This document shows positions 573 through 25,350 of a DNA stretch of 39,543 nucleotides, one piece after another; within the stretch, counting starts at the first letter, position 1; the number at the start of each line of letters is the position of its first letter. The notes below the pieces were generated by a model. That model was not told where the DNA came from. It saw nothing but the letters and a program-made list of their open reading frames with translations, and made no database searches. This stretch comes from a virus. The position numbers were made by a program, and so were the translations under genes. The DNA lies in the IMG/VR virus record IMGVR_UViG_3300047678_000608, positions 1-39,543 of that record; one strand, 5' to 3'.

Positions 573-2381
573 ATGGACCCGATCACTGACATCCCGGTCG
601 ACAAGCTCAACGAGAGCCCGTTCAACCCGCGCAAGGTCTTCAACGACCAGGCGCTCGAGGAACTGGCCACCGACATCCGCGCGCAAGGGCGCATCCTTCA
701 GCCCCTGCTCGTGCGCCCCATCGTGCCGCCGCTCTTCGCACGTCACCTTGCGCTCGAGCCCGACCTGGACGCGATCACCGGCTATGAGATCGTTTTCGGT
801 CACCGGCGTTTCCGCGCCGGCCGGCTCGCCGGCCTGGGTACGCTACCCTGCATGGTCCGCGTGATGACCGACGCAGAAGCCAGGCGCGCGCAGATCTCCG
901 AGAACCTGCAGCGTGCCGACGTGCACCCGATCGAGGAGGCCGAAGGCTTCCAGGCGCTGATGAACGAGGACGGCGGCATCGGCGCCGACGACCTGGCCGC
1001 GCAATGCGGCAAGAGCCGAAGCTACGTCTACGGGCGCCTCAAGCTGCTGCAGGCCTGCCCCGAGATACGCAAGGCCTGCCTGGCCGGCGAGATCGGCAGC
1101 GAGGTCGCGTTGCTGGTCGCGAGGCTGCGCACCGACAAGCTGCAGCAAAAGGCGCTCGGGTACATCCGCGGCAAGTACCTGCAGCTCGGCGATGGCGGCG
1201 AGAAGAGCTACCGCGGTATCCGCGACCTGCTCAATGAGCGATTCACGCTCGACCTCAAGAGCGCGATCTTCGACATCGAGGACGAAATGCTCTTGCCGCT
1301 CGCTGGCCACTGCCTGCGCTGCCCGAAGCGCAGCGGCAATGCGCCGGAGTTCGAGGACGTGCTCAACGATGAGAAGGCCCGCCACTACACCAGACAACAT
1401 GTCGGTGCGGACGTTTGCACCGACCCCGACTGCTTCGATGCGAAGAAGAAGGCGCACTTGAAGCGCGAGGCCGACAAGCTGGCCGACGGCGGCAAGACCA
1501 CCGTGGTCCAGGGCAATGCGGCTCGTTCCGTAGTCGGCGCGCGCGGCGAGATCAAGAATGGCTATGTCGCCTTGAAAGACGGCAAGGACTTGCTGGCCGC
1601 GGCGCAGTCGAACGCGCGGCGCGACAGCAAGATCGTGCCGCCACAGGTGTTCGTGATCCAGGATCCGCGCACGGGCAAGACGCACAAGGCGATCAAGCTG
1701 ACCGAGATCAAGGCTGCAGGTGTGAAGGTGAAGGAGCCGCCGGCGAACAGCGCAAGCGCCTACGAGGCTGAACGGCAGAAGCGCGAAGCCGAGCACAAGC
1801 GCGATGAGGAGAAGGCGAAGGCCGAGTCGGCCAGCCGTCTCGAGATCCTTGGCCGCGTGCGTGCAGCCGCGGCGGCAACGCCACGCACCGCCTTCGACTT
1901 GTTCATGGTTGCGGAGGTTGCGTTTGCTGGCCTGCAGTACCACGACAGGGAGACGCTCGCCGACATCTACGGCATCACCAGCCACCAGCTCGAGAGGCGC
2001 ATCGGCCAGATGGGCGTCGACGACCTATCGCTCTTTCTGCTCGATTGCGCGCTGGTGCAAGGCCTGCGGGTGTACGCGCACAGCCTCCATCGCAAGCCCG
2101 AGCGCCTGCTCGACGCCGCCAAGCACTACGGCGTCGACGTCGACCAGGTGCGCGCCGAACTCGCCGGCGACGCGTCTACCCCACCAACCGCTGCGCGAGC
2201 GCCGAAGAAGGCGGCGGCTGGCGCTGCGAAAAAACGTGCGAAGGCTGCGCGTGCGCCGACGGATGCAGCCGCCGGCGCGAAGAGCGAAGACAAGGCGCTC
2301 CGCGCCTCGAGCCAGACCGACGACGCCGGCGTTGCCGGCGGGGACGACGCACAGGCTGAGCTGCTCGAGGAGGCGCAATGA
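573..2381 (+). CDS. ParB/Spo0J-like protein with zinc-finger-like segment
   Basis: A protein of 602 residues, starting at ATG 573 behind GAGGTAACCC. Residues 1-130 form the ParB N-terminal domain, with NPR near 18-20, the nucleotide-binding GHRRFRA at 76-82 and ENLQR at 110-114. An HTH follows at about 136-160 (DDLAAQCGKSRSYVYGRLK). A Cys pair (CLRC) and CTDPDC around residues 248-288 resemble the metal-binding segment of plasmid and PRTRC-type ParB proteins. The middle is charged and coiled-coil-like; the C-terminus is an Ala/Lys-rich tail that could bind DNA nonspecifically. ParB proteins load onto parS and partition replicons with ParA. No ParA is visible in this genome, so it may instead act as a transcription or replication factor. 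It is far longer than chromosomal ParB (about 300 residues). Confidence 0.9.
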   Translation: MDPITDIPVDKLNESPFNPRKVFNDQALEELATDIRAQGRILQPLLVRPIVPPLFARHLALEPDLDAITGYEIVFGHRRFRAGRLAGLGTLPCMVRVMTDAEARRAQISENLQRADVHPIEEAEGFQALMNEDGGIGADDLAAQCGKSRSYVYGRLKLLQACPEIRKACLAGEIGSEVALLVARLRTDKLQQKALGYIRGKYLQLGDGGEKSYRGIRDLLNERFTLDLKSAIFDIEDEMLLPLAGHCLRCPKRSGNAPEFEDVLNDEKARHYTRQHVGADVCTDPDCFDAKKKAHLKREADKLADGGKTTVVQGNAARSVVGARGEIKNGYVALKDGKDLLAAAQSNARRDSKIVPPQVFVIQDPRTGKTHKAIKLTEIKAAGVKVKEPPANSASAYEAERQKREAEHKRDEEKAKAESASRLEILGRVRAAAAATPRTAFDLFMVAEVAFAGLQYHDRETLADIYGITSHQLERRIGQMGVDDLSLFLLDCALVQGLRVYAHSLHRKPERLLDAAKHYGVDVDQVRAELAGDASTPPTAARAPKKAAAGAAKKRAKAARAPTDAAAGAKSEDKALRASSQTDDAGVAGGDDAQAELLEEAQ

Positions 2382-18582: not shown

Positions 18583-18918
18583 TCAGGCGGTTGCAGACGT
18601 CGACGACTTGGCCGGAGGCGCCATGGCGCCGCTGGCGACCATCGCCTGGCCGAGCGCCTTGACCAGCGCCTCGACGAGGTCGGCCGGCTGCATGCCGGCC
18701 TGCTTGGCCACATGCGCTGCCTTCTCGGCCTCGAGCGCATCGTCGCGATCCTTTTGACTGGCGAACTCGAGCTTGTGCGCATGCAGCGCGGCTTCGGCGT
18801 CGTCGAAAGAGACGGTCTCGCCGGATTCGAAGCGACGCTCGCCGGTCTTGCCGTCGGGCAGCTTGGTCTGCTGCACAACGACGAAGCCGTCGCGCACCAC
18901 GTATTTCTTGGTAGCCAT
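18583..18918 (-). CDS. Hypothetical head-module protein
   Basis: A 111-residue protein in the position of lambda gpFI, after the capsid and before the head closure gene. The N-terminal 45 residues (KKYVVRDGFVVVQQTKLPDG and the following ESGETVSFDD) look like a small beta domain found on short virion proteins. The rest is a charged helix and an Ala/Ser tail. The ATG at 18918 has GGAGATC upstream. It may stabilise the connector or act in packaging, but this is inference from position only. Confidence 0.7.
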   Translation of the reverse strand: MATKKYVVRDGFVVVQQTKLPDGKTGERRFESGETVSFDDAEAALHAHKLEFASQKDRDDALEAEKAAHVAKQAGMQPADLVEALVKALGQAMVASGAMAPPAKSSTSATA

Positions 18919-19007: not shown

Positions 19008-20459
19008 TCAGGGCGTGAGGGCGTCGCTCATCACAGCGAACGACGCCGCGTGGCGCACCGCGATGTCGATCGACTGCAGCACCCGCAGCAGCACGCCGCC
19101 GTTCTTGAACACCGCCGCGTCGTATGGATTCGGCACGATCTCGACCACGCCCCACTCGCCGATCAGCAGCTCGGTCCAGGCGCCGAAAAAGATTTCGCTG
19201 CACACGCCCGCGCTCGTGCCCTTGGTCAGCGTGCTGCGCGCCTGATTGCTGCGCGCCATGGTGTAGCCGTTGATTTCGCCCGGCGTGCCGCTCCGCTGGC
19301 CCAGCGCGTTGGCCGTCCAGAGGTACTGGCCTGTGGTCGACACCAGCTTCTTCAGCGAGCCGATGGTCTTGGCGTTGGCCAGGTAGGCCAGCGAGTCCTC
19401 CGGCGCGTTGGCCGCGGTGACCTGTGTCTCCAGGTCGATCAGGTTGTTGATCGTCACCGCCGCGCCGTTCGTGCCGCCGACCACCGACCCGATGCCCGAC
19501 TGGTTCGCGATGCCGAGCGGCACGCCGCCCGTACCCGAGCCCGAGAGCGAGGCCAGGTCGACGCCGAGCGCCACCGCCGCCATCAGGTCGGCGCGGGCAA
19601 TCATGTCGATGTCCGGCGTGGACTGCATCAGCATGTTGCGCGTGACCTGGCTGTAGGTGCCGATGGTCTTCATGCTCAGGCTCACCGAGTCGAACGTCGC
19701 TTCGCTCTCGGTCGTGTTCGTACCTTCCGTCGTCCAGAAGGTGCTCGACTGGCCGTTTTGCCGCGGGATCGTGACGCTGCCGACCAAGCCGCTCAGGATC
19801 GTCGCGCCGAGCGACATCACGCGCGCCTTGTTGCGCAGCACCTCGATGAAGCTGCCGGCGAGAAGCTGCGTAGCCACCAACGTGCCGCCCGTGCTGCCGG
19901 CTCCCGGCGTGCCGACCGTATACGCCGCGCGCTGGCCGAATTGGATGTTGGTCGGGATGAAGAAGCCGCGCTCGTTCTCCGGGCCGCGGCCCAGGCGCTT
20001 CGACACCTCGTTGCTGCACTCGAGCTCGAAGCCGGCCTTGTCCCACTTGCCGTTCAGCGACGCGTTGACCGCGCGGATCATGCTGTAGCGCGCCTTGTCG
20101 CGCTCGCTCAGGTCGGGATTGTGCGAGCCGCCGAAGTCGGCTGCGGGCTTCCCTGCAGCGTGCGCACGTTCGAGGACGATGTCGCTCACGGTGACACGCG
20201 CCTGTTCGATCGTCGCGCCCTTCTGGATCATCGCCGTGCGCACCTCGGTCGACACGTCGTACTTCTTGCAAAGCGCCTCGATCTCGGTCATGCGGGCGCG
20301 CTCGGCTTCGGCGCCGCGCTGCGCACCGCGCTGTTCAATGACAGCGGTGTCGCCGTTCGCAACGGTGGTGGCCTGCACCGCGGTGCCGCCGGTACCGCCG
20401 CCGCCGTCGGGGTTGGCCTGCTCTTGCGGCCGCTGATGGCCGCGGAAACGAACGTTCAT
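19008..20459 (-). CDS. Major capsid protein from internal start
   Basis: An in-frame ATG at 20459 (Met220 of the fusion, MNVRFRGHQRPQEQ) is preceded by AGGAGCAATCC, a better ribosome binding site than that of the full-length start. The product would be 483 residues: a glycine-rich N-terminal segment, a helical delta-like scaffold region to about residue 130, then the HK97 core. Making capsid in excess over the protease from one gene parallels lambda C/Nu3-type nested genes. The start is inferred from sequence. Confidence 0.65.
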   Translation of the reverse strand: MNVRFRGHQRPQEQANPDGGGGTGGTAVQATTVANGDTAVIEQRGAQRGAEAERARMTEIEALCKKYDVSTEVRTAMIQKGATIEQARVTVSDIVLERAHAAGKPAADFGGSHNPDLSERDKARYSMIRAVNASLNGKWDKAGFELECSNEVSKRLGRGPENERGFFIPTNIQFGQRAAYTVGTPGAGSTGGTLVATQLLAGSFIEVLRNKARVMSLGATILSGLVGSVTIPRQNGQSSTFWTTEGTNTTESEATFDSVSLSMKTIGTYSQVTRNMLMQSTPDIDMIARADLMAAVALGVDLASLSGSGTGGVPLGIANQSGIGSVVGGTNGAAVTINNLIDLETQVTAANAPEDSLAYLANAKTIGSLKKLVSTTGQYLWTANALGQRSGTPGEINGYTMARSNQARSTLTKGTSAGVCSEIFFGAWTELLIGEWGVVEIVPNPYDAAVFKNGGVLLRVLQSIDIAVRHAASFAVMSDALTP

Positions 20460-21116
20460 GGATTGCTCCTGTGGAGTTGCTGGGTTGGAATGCGCACCAG
20501 GCGCGGTTGACACGCCCGGCGCGCCGCTATCGGCTGGCGCTGGGGTGGTGGCGGCGGCAGATCGGGTCTCGATCTGCACGCCGTTTTCTGTGCGGACGTC
20601 TGCACTGCGGCCGGCGCCCACAGTCGGGTCGGCGGGCACCGTGACGAGCGAGATCTCGTACGGCTCCCAGTCGATCGCGGTCAATGTCTCGGCTTCGGTG
20701 TCCTCGACGAACTTGAATACGCGGTACATGAAGGACACGTTGACCAGCACGCCGTCGGCGACCTGCTGCATCGCCCACTCGCCGCGCTCGTCCTTGCCGA
20801 AGCGCACGTCGGCGCGCGCGACTCGGTCCTTGCCGATCGCGATGCTGCCCACGACGCCGAGCAAGTCGTCCATGTCGTGGTTGAAGAGCAGCGGCAGCGA
20901 GTCCTGCCGCGCACCGGTCCGCATCGCGCCGGGCGCCATGCTGAGGATCTCGGTGCCGTACCACATGTCGACCGGGGTCTCGGATGCGAAGGCGAGCGTG
21001 GCCACGCGGTTCGAGAGGTCAACGACACCGTCTTGCGGCTCGCCCTTCGGCAGCAGGCGAAGGCTGACGGTGCGGCACTGCGGCGTCAGGGTCGCCGGGC
21101 GCTGTTTGATGGTCAT
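19008..21116 (-). CDS. Fused HK97-type prohead protease and major capsid protein
   Basis: A 702-residue fusion. Residues 1-170 are a U35/S78-type prohead protease: His in LPLLFNHD (His80) and Ser in VLVNVSFMYRV (Ser128), with the trailing YEISLVTVPADP strand. A Pro/Ala-rich linker follows (about 180-220). Residues 285-702 are an HK97-fold capsid protein (RGFFIPTNIQF, NKARVMSLGAT, VTIPRQNG, YSQVTRNMLMQS, DLASLSGSGTGG). The protease normally removes the scaffold domain and itself during head maturation. An internal start at 20459 has its own good ribosome binding site, so capsid is probably also made separately. ATG 21116 has AAAAGG upstream. Confidence 0.93.
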   Translation of the reverse strand: MTIKQRPATLTPQCRTVSLRLLPKGEPQDGVVDLSNRVATLAFASETPVDMWYGTEILSMAPGAMRTGARQDSLPLLFNHDMDDLLGVVGSIAIGKDRVARADVRFGKDERGEWAMQQVADGVLVNVSFMYRVFKFVEDTEAETLTAIDWEPYEISLVTVPADPTVGAGRSADVRTENGVQIETRSAAATTPAPADSGAPGVSTAPGAHSNPATPQEQSMNVRFRGHQRPQEQANPDGGGGTGGTAVQATTVANGDTAVIEQRGAQRGAEAERARMTEIEALCKKYDVSTEVRTAMIQKGATIEQARVTVSDIVLERAHAAGKPAADFGGSHNPDLSERDKARYSMIRAVNASLNGKWDKAGFELECSNEVSKRLGRGPENERGFFIPTNIQFGQRAAYTVGTPGAGSTGGTLVATQLLAGSFIEVLRNKARVMSLGATILSGLVGSVTIPRQNGQSSTFWTTEGTNTTESEATFDSVSLSMKTIGTYSQVTRNMLMQSTPDIDMIARADLMAAVALGVDLASLSGSGTGGVPLGIANQSGIGSVVGGTNGAAVTINNLIDLETQVTAANAPEDSLAYLANAKTIGSLKKLVSTTGQYLWTANALGQRSGTPGEINGYTMARSNQARSTLTKGTSAGVCSEIFFGAWTELLIGEWGVVEIVPNPYDAAVFKNGGVLLRVLQSIDIAVRHAASFAVMSDALTP

Positions 21117-21136: not shown

Positions 21137-21161
21137 GAAAAAGGCCGCTCGAGAGCGGCCT
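21137..21161 (-). terminator. Terminator between the SGNH gene and the capsid gene
   Basis: On the leftward strand an 8-bp perfect stem (AGGCCGCT with AGCGGCCT, loop CTCG) is followed directly by TTTTTC. It lies after the SGNH stop (21189) and before the protease-capsid start (21116), so either late antitermination reads through it or the capsid has its own promoter. Confidence 0.75.
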
Positions 21162-21188: not shown

Positions 21189-23069
21189 TCAGGCGCCGAC
21201 CTTGCGAAGTTCACCGTAGGTGACTTCGGCTGGATAGGCCGCGCCGGCAGCGGCTGTCAAGATGAGGCAGGGATTGATGATGGCCGTCCCTGGGGGAATG
21301 ACTATCTCCGGAGTCCGAAAGAGCATGTAGGGCGGCAGGACGCTCGGCATGCCGCCGGTGCCTGCATCGAAGCAGTTGCCCCACACAGCTCCGAGACCGC
21401 CGAACGCTGCGTTTGCCATTCCCATGCTGACGTACGCGCCGCCGCCGGCGCCGACCAAGGTGCCAAAGTAGACCTCGGTCTCGAAATAGACGGTGTCGCC
21501 GACATCGATCGAGGGAACGACTTCGAGCGTCACGCTTCCGTCGGTAAAAGTGGCGCCGATGATCTGCGACCACCCAGCCGTCGGATCAGCTCCGGCCGAC
21601 AATGCGCCGGTCGCCGACGTCGCGACATATTGGAGTCCGGTCAGGATCGTTGGTCGAAGCCGAGTGCCGATCTTGACCGTTTTGCCGGCCGCCCAACTGT
21701 CCAGGAACACCGGACGCGCGGCAGTCGTGCCGGGGAAGATATTGCATTTGTCGAACGTGGCTCCGCCGGTGAATGCGATGTGCAGCACGTCTCCGCTGCC
21801 GTACGGGTTCTTCAGTAACGCCGACGAGCGGCGTGCCACTTTCGAGATTACCGCAGTCGCGGTGCCTGTGCAGGCCGCATTCCACTGGCTCGGACCGTTG
21901 CCGGTCACGCCCGCACCTGCCGTCCAGTTGTTCGAGCCGCTGGCGTTGTTTCCGTCTACCCGCGGATTGAAAATCATCTGACTGACGCTGCTGACGACTC
22001 CGGAAGGGACGTGCGGCGCCGGGAACAGCTTGTCGACTATCGGTGCCATGGCGAGGGCTTCGTACAAGGCCCCGTCAGAATTCGTATGCACCAAATCGCC
22101 GGCAGCCAGTGTGGTCAGCATGTTGCCCTTGGTGCCATCCGCAGTCGTGCCGACGACCGGGCTGTACGCGTCCAGGACGAAGAGCCTGTCGCGCTTATGA
22201 GCCAATGCCGCCAGGCCGGAGTTGAAGATCTGCTGCTGCACCTGATTGGCAGCAGTCAGATTGCCTGGCGCGTCCAGTGAGACGAGCAACGTCACGCCAA
22301 GCGCCAGGATCGAGTCGAGCAGGCCGCTGTAGAGCGGGAGCATGTTCGCGGCGGTGCGCCCGGCATTGAAATCGTTGTAACCGTCATCTATCCAGACCAC
22401 GTTCGGCTTTGTCGGCATCTGCAGCAGCAAAGGCAACTGATAGTCGATGGCGTTCTGAATCGTCGAGCTTGTCACGGCATAGTTGGCCATGACGTTGAAT
22501 CGCTGCCCGAGCATCGCATTGAGCGGTGTCAGATACCCGTACTGATCCCAGAAATTGACTCCACTGCCAGTGATCAGCACTGATTCCAGGTTGACTGGCA
22601 CCGCTGCGCTGAGGTTGTAAGTTCCTACTCCCCCAGTGCCCGTGCCAAATGAAGAGATCGTTACGGCTCCGGAGATATTGTTGCCCTGCGGCACGCCGAC
22701 CCCGTAAATTGCCATGCCGACTGCCAGCGCGCCCACGTTGACGCTGTCGATTGTCAGAACGGCTCCAACGATCGCGCCATGGCCTTCGAAGCCGGTACCG
22801 AACGCGTGGGCCATACGACTGTCACCCATCGTCACGAGCGTGGTGCGTCCCCTGCTGCCATAGGTTGCGGCCGCCAGCGCCTGCTGCGCTGTCAAACTTC
22901 CAGAGCCGGACGCTGCGGGAAAACTTAGGGCCGTCGCGACGCCGCGGTTTACCAACTCTTGCGCCAGCGTATCGGGCACCGTCCAGGGATTGCCGGCCGA
23001 AGTCATGACGCCGATGCCAAAGCCGCCATTGACCGACGCGCCGGCGTTCATGTTGATTTGCAAGCTCAT
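21189..23069 (-). CDS. Virion SGNH/GDSL esterase with inserted beta domain
   Basis: A 626-residue enzyme of the SGNH hydrolase fold. Block I is GDSR (Ser84), block III GYND (Asn232) and block V DLVH (Asp325, His328), so a full catalytic set is visible. About 80 residues (92-172, with GTGTGGVGTYNLS) that resemble a small repeat domain of tail proteins are inserted between blocks I and II. The N-terminal 45 residues (GNPWTVPDTLAQELVNRG) look like a short docking domain; the C-terminal 270 look like carbohydrate-binding beta sandwiches. Such phage enzymes deacylate capsule or O-antigen. It lies inside the head genes, overlaps the portal stop and is followed by a terminator. Its codons are less GC-biased than its neighbours', suggesting later acquisition. 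Confidence 0.82.
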   Translation of the reverse strand: MSLQINMNAGASVNGGFGIGVMTSAGNPWTVPDTLAQELVNRGVATALSFPAASGSGSLTAQQALAAATYGSRGRTTLVTMGDSRMAHAFGTGFEGHGAIVGAVLTIDSVNVGALAVGMAIYGVGVPQGNNISGAVTISSFGTGTGGVGTYNLSAAVPVNLESVLITGSGVNFWDQYGYLTPLNAMLGQRFNVMANYAVTSSTIQNAIDYQLPLLLQMPTKPNVVWIDDGYNDFNAGRTAANMLPLYSGLLDSILALGVTLLVSLDAPGNLTAANQVQQQIFNSGLAALAHKRDRLFVLDAYSPVVGTTADGTKGNMLTTLAAGDLVHTNSDGALYEALAMAPIVDKLFPAPHVPSGVVSSVSQMIFNPRVDGNNASGSNNWTAGAGVTGNGPSQWNAACTGTATAVISKVARRSSALLKNPYGSGDVLHIAFTGGATFDKCNIFPGTTAARPVFLDSWAAGKTVKIGTRLRPTILTGLQYVATSATGALSAGADPTAGWSQIIGATFTDGSVTLEVVPSIDVGDTVYFETEVYFGTLVGAGGGAYVSMGMANAAFGGLGAVWGNCFDAGTGGMPSVLPPYMLFRTPEIVIPPGTAIINPCLILTAAAGAAYPAEVTYGELRKVGA

Positions 23070-24772
23070 TGCTGATCCCTGTCGTTGGATGTGTCTTCCG
23101 CACCAGGCTCTGCCGGCGCGCTCGGATTTGGCTCCGGCGGCTCGCCCTCGGCCTTGCCGCCCTCGACCTCGGTCGCCGCCGGCAGCGGCTGCGCCTGGCC
23201 CTTGTCGTTGACCTGCAGCGGGTCGCTGTCGAAGACGAGCTCGAGCTCGGCCGCCATGTCGAGTTCCTCGCGGCGGTTCTTCATCACGTCCTCGACATCG
23301 CTGTCGGGACTCGTCTGCGCGATCACGTCACCCTGCGTCATGAAACCGTTGCGCACGGCCATCTTGTAGGCGGCGACTTCCTTTTGGGGGTCGATCCAGC
23401 TCCAGCCGCGCGGCTTGAACTTCACGGCCTGGTACTTGGCCGGGTTGGAGTAGTAGTCGGCGCCGGCCTTGACCTTGCCGACGAGCACGGCGGCATCGAG
23501 GAACTCGCGGTGGATGTCCCACCGCAGGTTGCGGATGACGAAGCCCTGCAGCACGCGATACAGGTCGCGGTCGTCGAGCAGCGCCATGCGGCTCGACGAA
23601 TAGTTGCTCTGGCTGTAGTCGCGGCTGAGACTCTCGTAGCTGGTGCCCACGCCGACCGCCATCTTGCGCAGCATGTAGCGCAGGAATGGCTCGACCGACG
23701 GGTCCGGTGTCATGCCGTTGAAGCCGGCGACGTCTTCGCCCGGCAGCAGCTTGGTCCAGGTGCCCGGCTCGGTGTCGACGATCTGTCGACCGTTCTGCAC
23801 GCCGTCGCCGGTTGTCAATTCGGGGCTGCGGATGAAGCCGACGATGTTGGCCGCCGCGCGCGACTTGACGATCAGGCTCTCTTCGTAGCCGGCTTGGTCG
23901 TGCAGGTTGCGCACGACCGCGTGGAACCACGGCTCGCCGCGCGTCTGCGGCCAACGCTCGACGATGTAGAGGTGGATGATGTCCGCGGCGTCGACGCGCA
24001 GGTACTTCGACGGCTCGAAGGTCGCGAACTGGTAGTCGCCGGGGTGGTGCGGCGAGAACCAGTACGCGACCGGGCGGCCCCAGCTGTCGACCTCGACGCC
24101 CATGCGGATCGCGTTGCCGTTCGGCGCGCGTGCGGTCTGCCATGCATCGAGCAGCCGGTCGGCTTCGATCACCTCGAGCGCGAGCGGGATCGTGCCGCTG
24201 CCGAACGGCCGGCGGATCTTGCGGATGATCACTTCGCCGGCCGTGACCAGTTGCACCATCGCGAGCCGCTCGATCTCCGGAAAGCCGAGCAGGCCGGCCG
24301 TGTGGCACGTCGCCTTGCACGACCAGTCGGCCCACGCGTTCTCGATGCTGTCGTTCACCGCCGTCTGCAGCTTGCCGCGGCCGCTCTTCACCTGCCCCTG
24401 CAGCCCGATGCCCTGGCCGATCACGTTGTTCGTGATCAGGCGAACCGCGTGCTTGGCGAACGGGTTGTCGCGCACCAGCTGGCGCGAGCGGGCGCGCAAT
24501 GCACGCAGCGAGGTGAGGATCTCGCTGTCGGCGCTGGTGCCCATCGCGGTCCAGTCGCCGGTCAGCCGCGAGAACTCCGCACCGGCGTAACTGCGTGCCT
24601 GCTGCTGCAGCCGATCGCGCTGGACGGCGGCGCCGCGCTGTTGCGCGCGCTGCGCGACGAACTTGTCGAGCACGAGGCTGCGCTTCACGGCCAGGTCGGG
24701 CACGACCGCGCCGGTGGGCAGCGCCGGTGCGCGGCTTGCGCTCTGGAAGAAAGGCCGTTCGAAGGGTCGCAT
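23066..24772 (-). CDS. Portal protein, lambda gpB family
   Basis: A 568-residue protein forming the dodecameric DNA gate of the head. LRARSRQLVRDNPFAKHAVR, followed by ITNNVIGQGI, is the classic N-terminal signature of the lambda-type portal (PF05136). Further hallmarks are FGSGTIPLALEVIEADRL, WFHAVVRNLHDQAGYEES and YSQSNYSSSRMALLDD. The C-terminal tail is Pro/Glu-rich and probably disordered. ATG 24772 overlaps the stop of the gpW-like gene, and its own stop overlaps the SGNH start. It matches the lambda-type terminase upstream. There is no fused C-protease; that function is on the capsid gene instead. Confidence 0.95.
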   Translation of the reverse strand: MRPFERPFFQSASRAPALPTGAVVPDLAVKRSLVLDKFVAQRAQQRGAAVQRDRLQQQARSYAGAEFSRLTGDWTAMGTSADSEILTSLRALRARSRQLVRDNPFAKHAVRLITNNVIGQGIGLQGQVKSGRGKLQTAVNDSIENAWADWSCKATCHTAGLLGFPEIERLAMVQLVTAGEVIIRKIRRPFGSGTIPLALEVIEADRLLDAWQTARAPNGNAIRMGVEVDSWGRPVAYWFSPHHPGDYQFATFEPSKYLRVDAADIIHLYIVERWPQTRGEPWFHAVVRNLHDQAGYEESLIVKSRAAANIVGFIRSPELTTGDGVQNGRQIVDTEPGTWTKLLPGEDVAGFNGMTPDPSVEPFLRYMLRKMAVGVGTSYESLSRDYSQSNYSSSRMALLDDRDLYRVLQGFVIRNLRWDIHREFLDAAVLVGKVKAGADYYSNPAKYQAVKFKPRGWSWIDPQKEVAAYKMAVRNGFMTQGDVIAQTSPDSDVEDVMKNRREELDMAAELELVFDSDPLQVNDKGQAQPLPAATEVEGGKAEGEPPEPNPSAPAEPGAEDTSNDRDQQ

Positions 24773-25350
24773 CAGCAAGGCCTCACGAAGCGGACGAACA
24801 GATTGCGCGGGTTGCCGAGGCCGTTGGCGATCGAGTCGGACGTGCCTTCGTTGAGCACCTTGATCTGCCAGAAGCTGTGCAACGACATCAACGAGGCCAA
24901 GTCCTGAAACTCCATCGTCCGGCCGGCGATCTCGTATTTCTTGACCTTGCCGCCGGTGGCGTTGAAGGTGGCCATCGCGGCCTCGCAATCGGCGAGCGCG
25001 ATCTGCGCCGGCGTGCGGCCGTCATAGGCCGTGTTGATCTGCGTCAGGTCCGGCGTGATGGTGAGCTGGCCGTTGCCGATCGTGATGCGCTGGCCGGTCT
25101 GCGCGATCGCAGCGGACCAGGTGTAGAGGCCTGGCGCGAGTCCCGCGGTGTCCGCGATCGCGACCGTGCTCTGCCAGCCCGGCGTGCCGTCCGTCTGCGG
25201 CACGGCCACGATGTCCAGCTTCGACGGCCCGCGCAGCGCGTAGGTCAGCGTCCACAGGTCGGAGTCGGCGACGGTGCCGTCGTCGAGCGTCCACGGGTCA
25301 TCCGGCCAGGTCGCGCTGTCGCCCTGGGTCAGTGTCGAGAAGATGTTCAT
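24772..25350 (-). CDS. gpW-like head-tail joining protein with N-terminal beta domain
   Basis: A 192-residue protein between terminase and portal, the slot of lambda gpW. The C-terminal 65 residues (LADCEAAMATFNATGGKVKK, then EIAGRTMEFQDLASLMSL) fit the gpW helix-hairpin-helix pattern with the GR..EF turn, although gpW is only about 68 residues. The first 110 residues (DSATWPDDPWTLDDGTVADS, then TLTYALRGPSKLDIV and GLYTWSAAIAQTGQRITIG) form an Ig-like beta domain. The whole therefore reads as a fusion. gpW plugs the portal and prepares the tail-joining surface. The extra domain might be surface-exposed. The fold call is by eye. Confidence 0.65.
   Translation of the reverse strand: MNIFSTLTQGDSATWPDDPWTLDDGTVADSDLWTLTYALRGPSKLDIVAVPQTDGTPGWQSTVAIADTAGLAPGLYTWSAAIAQTGQRITIGNGQLTITPDLTQINTAYDGRTPAQIALADCEAAMATFNATGGKVKKYEIAGRTMEFQDLASLMSLHSFWQIKVLNEGTSDSIANGLGNPRNLFVRFVRPC

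Follow-up and report, generated by a model that had tools for sequence, protein, structure and literature searches.

A phage gene slot between portal and capsid genes holds a GDSL-like protein on a shared N-terminal module

The window, the whole stretch of DNA analysed here, is an IMG/VR virus record of 39,543 bp. Its late region lies on the minus strand and comprises terminase, head-tail joining, portal, a slot gene, a protease-capsid fusion, and tail genes. The slot gene (21189..23069, minus strand) is an uninterrupted 626-codon open reading frame with an ATG start, and its 626-aa product combines a docking module, an SGNH/GDSL-type core with an insert, and a C-terminal region. The slot is bordered upstream by a lambda-family portal gene (23066..24988, minus strand; PF05136, E 6.6e-95), whose open reading frame reaches 24988 with the true start further in, and downstream by the fusion gene (19008..21116, minus strand; Peptidase_S78, PF04586, and Phage_capsid, PF05065; phrog_617, E 4.7e-129). 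The start codon of the slot gene and the portal stop overlap by 4 nt. GC3 is 0.75 in the slot gene, versus 0.86 to 0.93 in the larger head and tail genes around it. A preliminary description, made from the DNA letters, had reported this position, the overlap, and the weaker GC bias, and we recovered all three. The window also carries tail-tip and tail-fibre genes, so receptor binding need not depend on the slot protein alone.

Between the slot gene and the capsid gene, in the capsid leader, lies a terminator-like hairpin with a T-run (21142..21161, minus strand), which had been described as the slot gene's own terminator. The hairpin exists, but it is not specific to the slot gene, because 13 of 19 empty-slot relatives have a hairpin and T-run at the same place, ending 11 to 37 nt upstream of the capsid start; 3 of 8 filled relatives do as well, compared with 0.2% of shuffled sequences. 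The carriers besides the window (L004, L005, L007, L009, L010, L012-L015, L020, L022, L024, L027, L028, and L033) vary in hairpin sequence. The hairpin is part of the capsid leader, not of the inserted gene, and possibly serves the capsid gene as an attenuator or as a stabiliser of the mRNA 5' end.

Searches of the full-length protein against Pfam, NCBIfam, PHROGs, and phage and viral collections returned almost nothing: the intact sequence had zero Pfam matches even at E≤1 and no match in phage records, and phmmer against the PDB gave a weak pointer to SGNH esterases (E 0.15). The spacing of motifs indicated an insert of ∼79 aa (residues 93 to 171; 22557..22793, minus strand) between SGNH blocks I and II. 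With this segment omitted, a post hoc test given that it was picked from motif spacing, the protein matched Lipase_GDSL_2 (PF13472) at E 2.1e-8 (35.3 bits against a cut-off of 32.9) and PDB entry 7c2a at E 0.0027; the Pfam score appears only without the insert. Together with the motifs, the PF13472 match agrees with the SGNH-type esterase of the preliminary description, although a profile search of this region in the intact protein fails. The core thus delimited spans residues 75 to about 355 (22005..22847, minus strand). An AlphaFold2 (AF2) model built on a thin alignment had a mean pLDDT of 38.5 and is unreliable over the core, showing alternating strands and helices only at residues 201 to 290. 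Relatives of the SGNH core, of the insert, and of the C-terminus were searched for, and none were found. The C-terminal region (residues 356 to 626; 21192..22004, minus strand) had no family match and no phage match, leaving the carbohydrate-binding domains proposed there without family backing.

The catalytic set was said to be complete, and most of it is: Ser84 of block I (GDSR), Asn232 of block III (GYND), and Asp325/His328 of block V (DLVH) are all present. In the phmmer alignment to 7c2d/7c2a, however, the block-II Gly of the solved esterases (NAGVSGDT) falls opposite Ser201 (NYAVTSST), so that the oxyanion-hole Gly, the G of SGNH, appears to have been replaced. For this reason activity is uncertain, and we term the slot protein GDSL-like instead of a strict SGNH member. 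The substitution and the large insert near block I would suit an SGNH fold that has lost catalysis and now serves only to bind sugars. We consider this unlikely, as none of the Ser, Asn, Asp, and His motifs is disrupted, and a serine can still offer its backbone NH to the oxyanion hole. The slot enzyme probably trims the bacterial sugar coat.

The N-terminus behaves differently from the remainder of the protein. A whole-protein search found one viral contig, L002, which shares residues 1 to 53 alone (70% identity) and continues as an unrelated, beta-helix-like protein of 885 aa in total. By following the capsid gene and the N-terminus, we gathered nine slot homologues (the window, L002, L006, L007, L025, L027, L091, L095, and L097) in which residues 1 to 50 (22920..23069, minus strand) are conserved as a docking-like module with a predicted beta-beta-alpha-beta order. 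In all nine, the slot gene directly follows the portal gene, and the capsid gene lies downstream in all seven whose contigs extend that far (those of L091 and L097 stop inside the slot gene), with a further small gene between in L007 and L095. Whole-record scans of the records searched found the module once per record and only in the slot, and a GDSL match exceeded the cut-off in three records, in each case in the slot as well. Pairwise homology among the nine proteins mostly ends at residues 45 to 80, with L002 and L097 alike further on. The nine proteins therefore show a constant N-terminal anchor with exchangeable C-terminal parts, as in modular phage receptor-binding proteins, and the docking-like domain of the preliminary description recurs on differing C-terminal parts.

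Structure prediction of residues 1 to 50, a check proposed earlier, gave a strand-strand-helix-strand shape with uneven confidence (pLDDT about 85 to 92 at residues 1 to 10 and 31 to 50 in the full-length AF2 model; mean 66 in a 75-aa model). Foldseek found no significant match for the 75-aa model in BFVD or the PDB, and the module matched neither DUF7210, DUF7302, nor any known anchor family. Among 399 genomes of the Rubrivivax order, we detected the L095 copy only, plus borderline matches at E 0.004 to 0.008. L095 is part of a metagenome-assembled genome of Rubrivivax, pointing to Burkholderiales as hosts, at least for this phage. A candidate tenth member, L096 (Phaeovibrio), was rejected based on a weak match and no visible phage context.

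The C-terminal parts carried by the module are diverse. SGNH C-termini occur in the window, L006, and L027, below the cut-off in L007, and by motif only in L095, making four docked fillers other than the window's with SGNH by profile or motif. Two more, L002 and L097 (885 and more than 780 aa), are beta-helix-like in appearance, without profile support, and the C-terminus of L025 was assigned to no class. In L091, which is incomplete at the contig end, an FDD motif and the next stretch recall NodB deacetylases; we did not retain this assignment, as it is a motif resemblance without profile or PDB support. SGNH proteins also occupy the slot without the module: the identical proteins at L021:6358-7848 and L031:2567-4057 match Lipase_GDSL_2 (7.5e-14) behind a different N-terminus, suggesting that SGNH enzymes came into the slot more than once. 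By eye, the N-termini of L031/L021 and of L029 have a pattern like that of the docking module. hhalign did not support the N-termini of L031 (= L021) and L029, all in the same slot, as homologues of the module.

Occupancy of the slot is patchy, and the gene is accessory. We counted relatives whose junction is visible and whose capsid is about 43% or more identical, some of them near-duplicates: the slot is empty in 23 and filled in 8. The filled slots include the SGNH protein on another N-terminus (L021 and L031) and a short protein (L029). The docked state requires at least five changes on the capsid tree, several forks of which are weakly supported. Filler GC3 is lower than portal GC3 in eight of nine cases, marginally in L006, with L095 as the exception. 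The synteny comparison proposed in the preliminary description thus found the gene absent from most relatives, not fixed in all of them. Accessory presence and divergent composition are both supported. A single recent acquisition was rejected as a full account, given the different C-termini in the slots of relatives. Two records hold additional genes here: L007:6890-7423 is an extra portal-capsid slot gene with a signal-peptide-like start (MRQIITLILSALALCSTAQA), perhaps encoding a secreted cargo protein, and L095:9592-10146 is a second small gene, without a Pfam match, that separates the SGNH slot gene from the capsid gene.

Based on this architecture, we infer that the protein attaches to the virion, and the ester substrate and a role in adsorption are likewise proposals. 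The reading we favour, and hold to be reasonably probable, is that the cassette slot encodes a protein anchored to the virion that modifies polysaccharides and is organised like a modular receptor-binding protein. The gene would be expressed with the late operon from its start overlapping the portal stop, residues 1 to 50 would dock the protein to the particle, and the exchangeable enzymatic part, here an SGNH-type esterase, would work on surface sugars, most likely taking acyl groups off capsule, exopolysaccharide, or O-antigen at adsorption. In related phages the slot is empty or is filled by proteins that join this docking module to different C-terminal parts. The shared N-terminal tag and swapped enzymes suggest that the virion is equipped, possibly at its head, with a plug-in tool for attacking hosts.

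The slot protein is a variant of modular phage receptor-binding enzymes at an unusual gene position. SGNH and beta-helix domains are the two main enzyme classes of sugar-active phage receptor-binding proteins; SGNH domains are common in those of Klebsiella prophages, with esterase activity measured for two, and G7C gp63.1 is cited in the same paper as a phage receptor-binding protein with an SGNH domain (PMC13123978). Moo19/B2 tailspikes likewise have esterase activity (PMC11654681). These proteins share with ours an exchangeable sugar-active domain and a virion anchor, the latter proposed here from architecture. They are tail proteins, whereas the slot gene is placed between those for portal and capsid, and its module matches no known anchor family. 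That the characterised SGNH receptor-binding proteins are tail fibres or tailspikes (PMC13123978, PMC11654681), and that gene location need not mirror virion location, would favour a conventional receptor-binding protein of the tail that simply happens to be encoded in the head cluster, with residues 1 to 50 binding a tail or baseplate protein. We regard this as somewhat unlikely, since all nine docked genes are at the portal and none is in the tail module, and the module's strongest similarities elsewhere are to capsid-adjacent small proteins.

Those similarities concern the genes that follow the capsid gene. A small protein beginning MxxKxYxVRxGFVV..., encoded in the window by the first gene after the capsid gene (18583-18918, minus strand), has counterparts at this position in nearly all the phages of this group and is DUF7210/DUF7302-like in more distant relatives. 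When about 50 small post-capsid proteins were searched with the docking HMM, the top match was L088 (E 9.4e-6), followed by VP882 gp10 (E 0.001); the set was built after L088 had been seen at E 0.05 in an unselected scan, so these small E-values exaggerate the similarity and provide no more than a lead. In the window itself, the post-capsid protein did not score against the HMM. DUF7210 and DUF7302 proteins resemble the docking module in their strand-strand-helix-strand pattern, and L088 gives weak matches to both families, short of their cut-offs, and to the docking HMM, but the module itself matches neither family; a limited literature search found no paper naming either. Gene position and this module similarity are a lead toward attachment at the head or neck over the tail, which, if the protein is in the virion, we favour slightly. 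The fuller proposal, a cassette slot for head-mounted, swappable polysaccharide-active enzymes whose module is related to capsid-adjacent proteins and which could form a host-range device independent of the tail, is put forward tentatively.

Head-borne adsorption structures have precedents. The head spikes of RcGTA bind capsule and are anchored N-terminally (PMC10218006), comparable in being polysaccharide-directed and held by the N-terminus, with a head location only proposed for ours. In RcGTA the capsule-binding spike fibre is mounted on a separate base protein, and the text consulted describes no enzyme domain. Phage 7-7-1 has capsid fibres (PMC12796354), likewise a head-borne adsorption structure, a kind to which our protein may belong; its fibres differ in being flagellum-directed, and their protein has not been assigned to a gene.

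Virions of the Vibrio phage Peru-2 contain an abundant GDSL esterase (PMC13320782), a likeness to our protein, whose presence in virions is proposed from its architecture; in Peru-2, by contrast, the esterase gene adjoins that of the tailspike, and the position of the enzyme in the virion is not resolved by cryo-EM. The suggestion that it belongs to an internal core (PMC13320782), together with the place of the slot gene among head genes, would be compatible with an esterase packed within the head, to be released or ejected along with the genome. This is very unlikely in our judgement, as the large beta-helix-like proteins on the same module resemble external spikes.

The slot also takes other genes, as in L007 and L095, which would be expected if its product were not part of the virion at all, acting instead as a late soluble enzyme freed at lysis to loosen nearby polysaccharide or as lysogenic-conversion cargo (a moron), with the shared N-terminus serving translation or folding. 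We found no promoter-like site for the slot gene alone, the terminator belongs to the capsid leader, and the N-terminus shows no evident signal peptide. The conserved module also exceeds, in length and in constraint, what translation coupling would require. Such a role is improbable relative to virion anchoring.

A limited literature search, covering few subscription journals, found no report of a portal-capsid slot with swappable enzymes on one N-terminal module. If the module binds the head, the slot would be a natural plug-in system for presenting a variety of sugar-active enzymes at a distance from the tail, and exchange of one cassette could alter adsorption. The 50-residue module also offers a handle for virion enzymes missed by family searches.

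Outside the late region, the window encodes a 602-aa ParB-like protein (573-2381, plus strand; phrog_4715, E 3.9e-40), which may indicate a phage-plasmid lifestyle.
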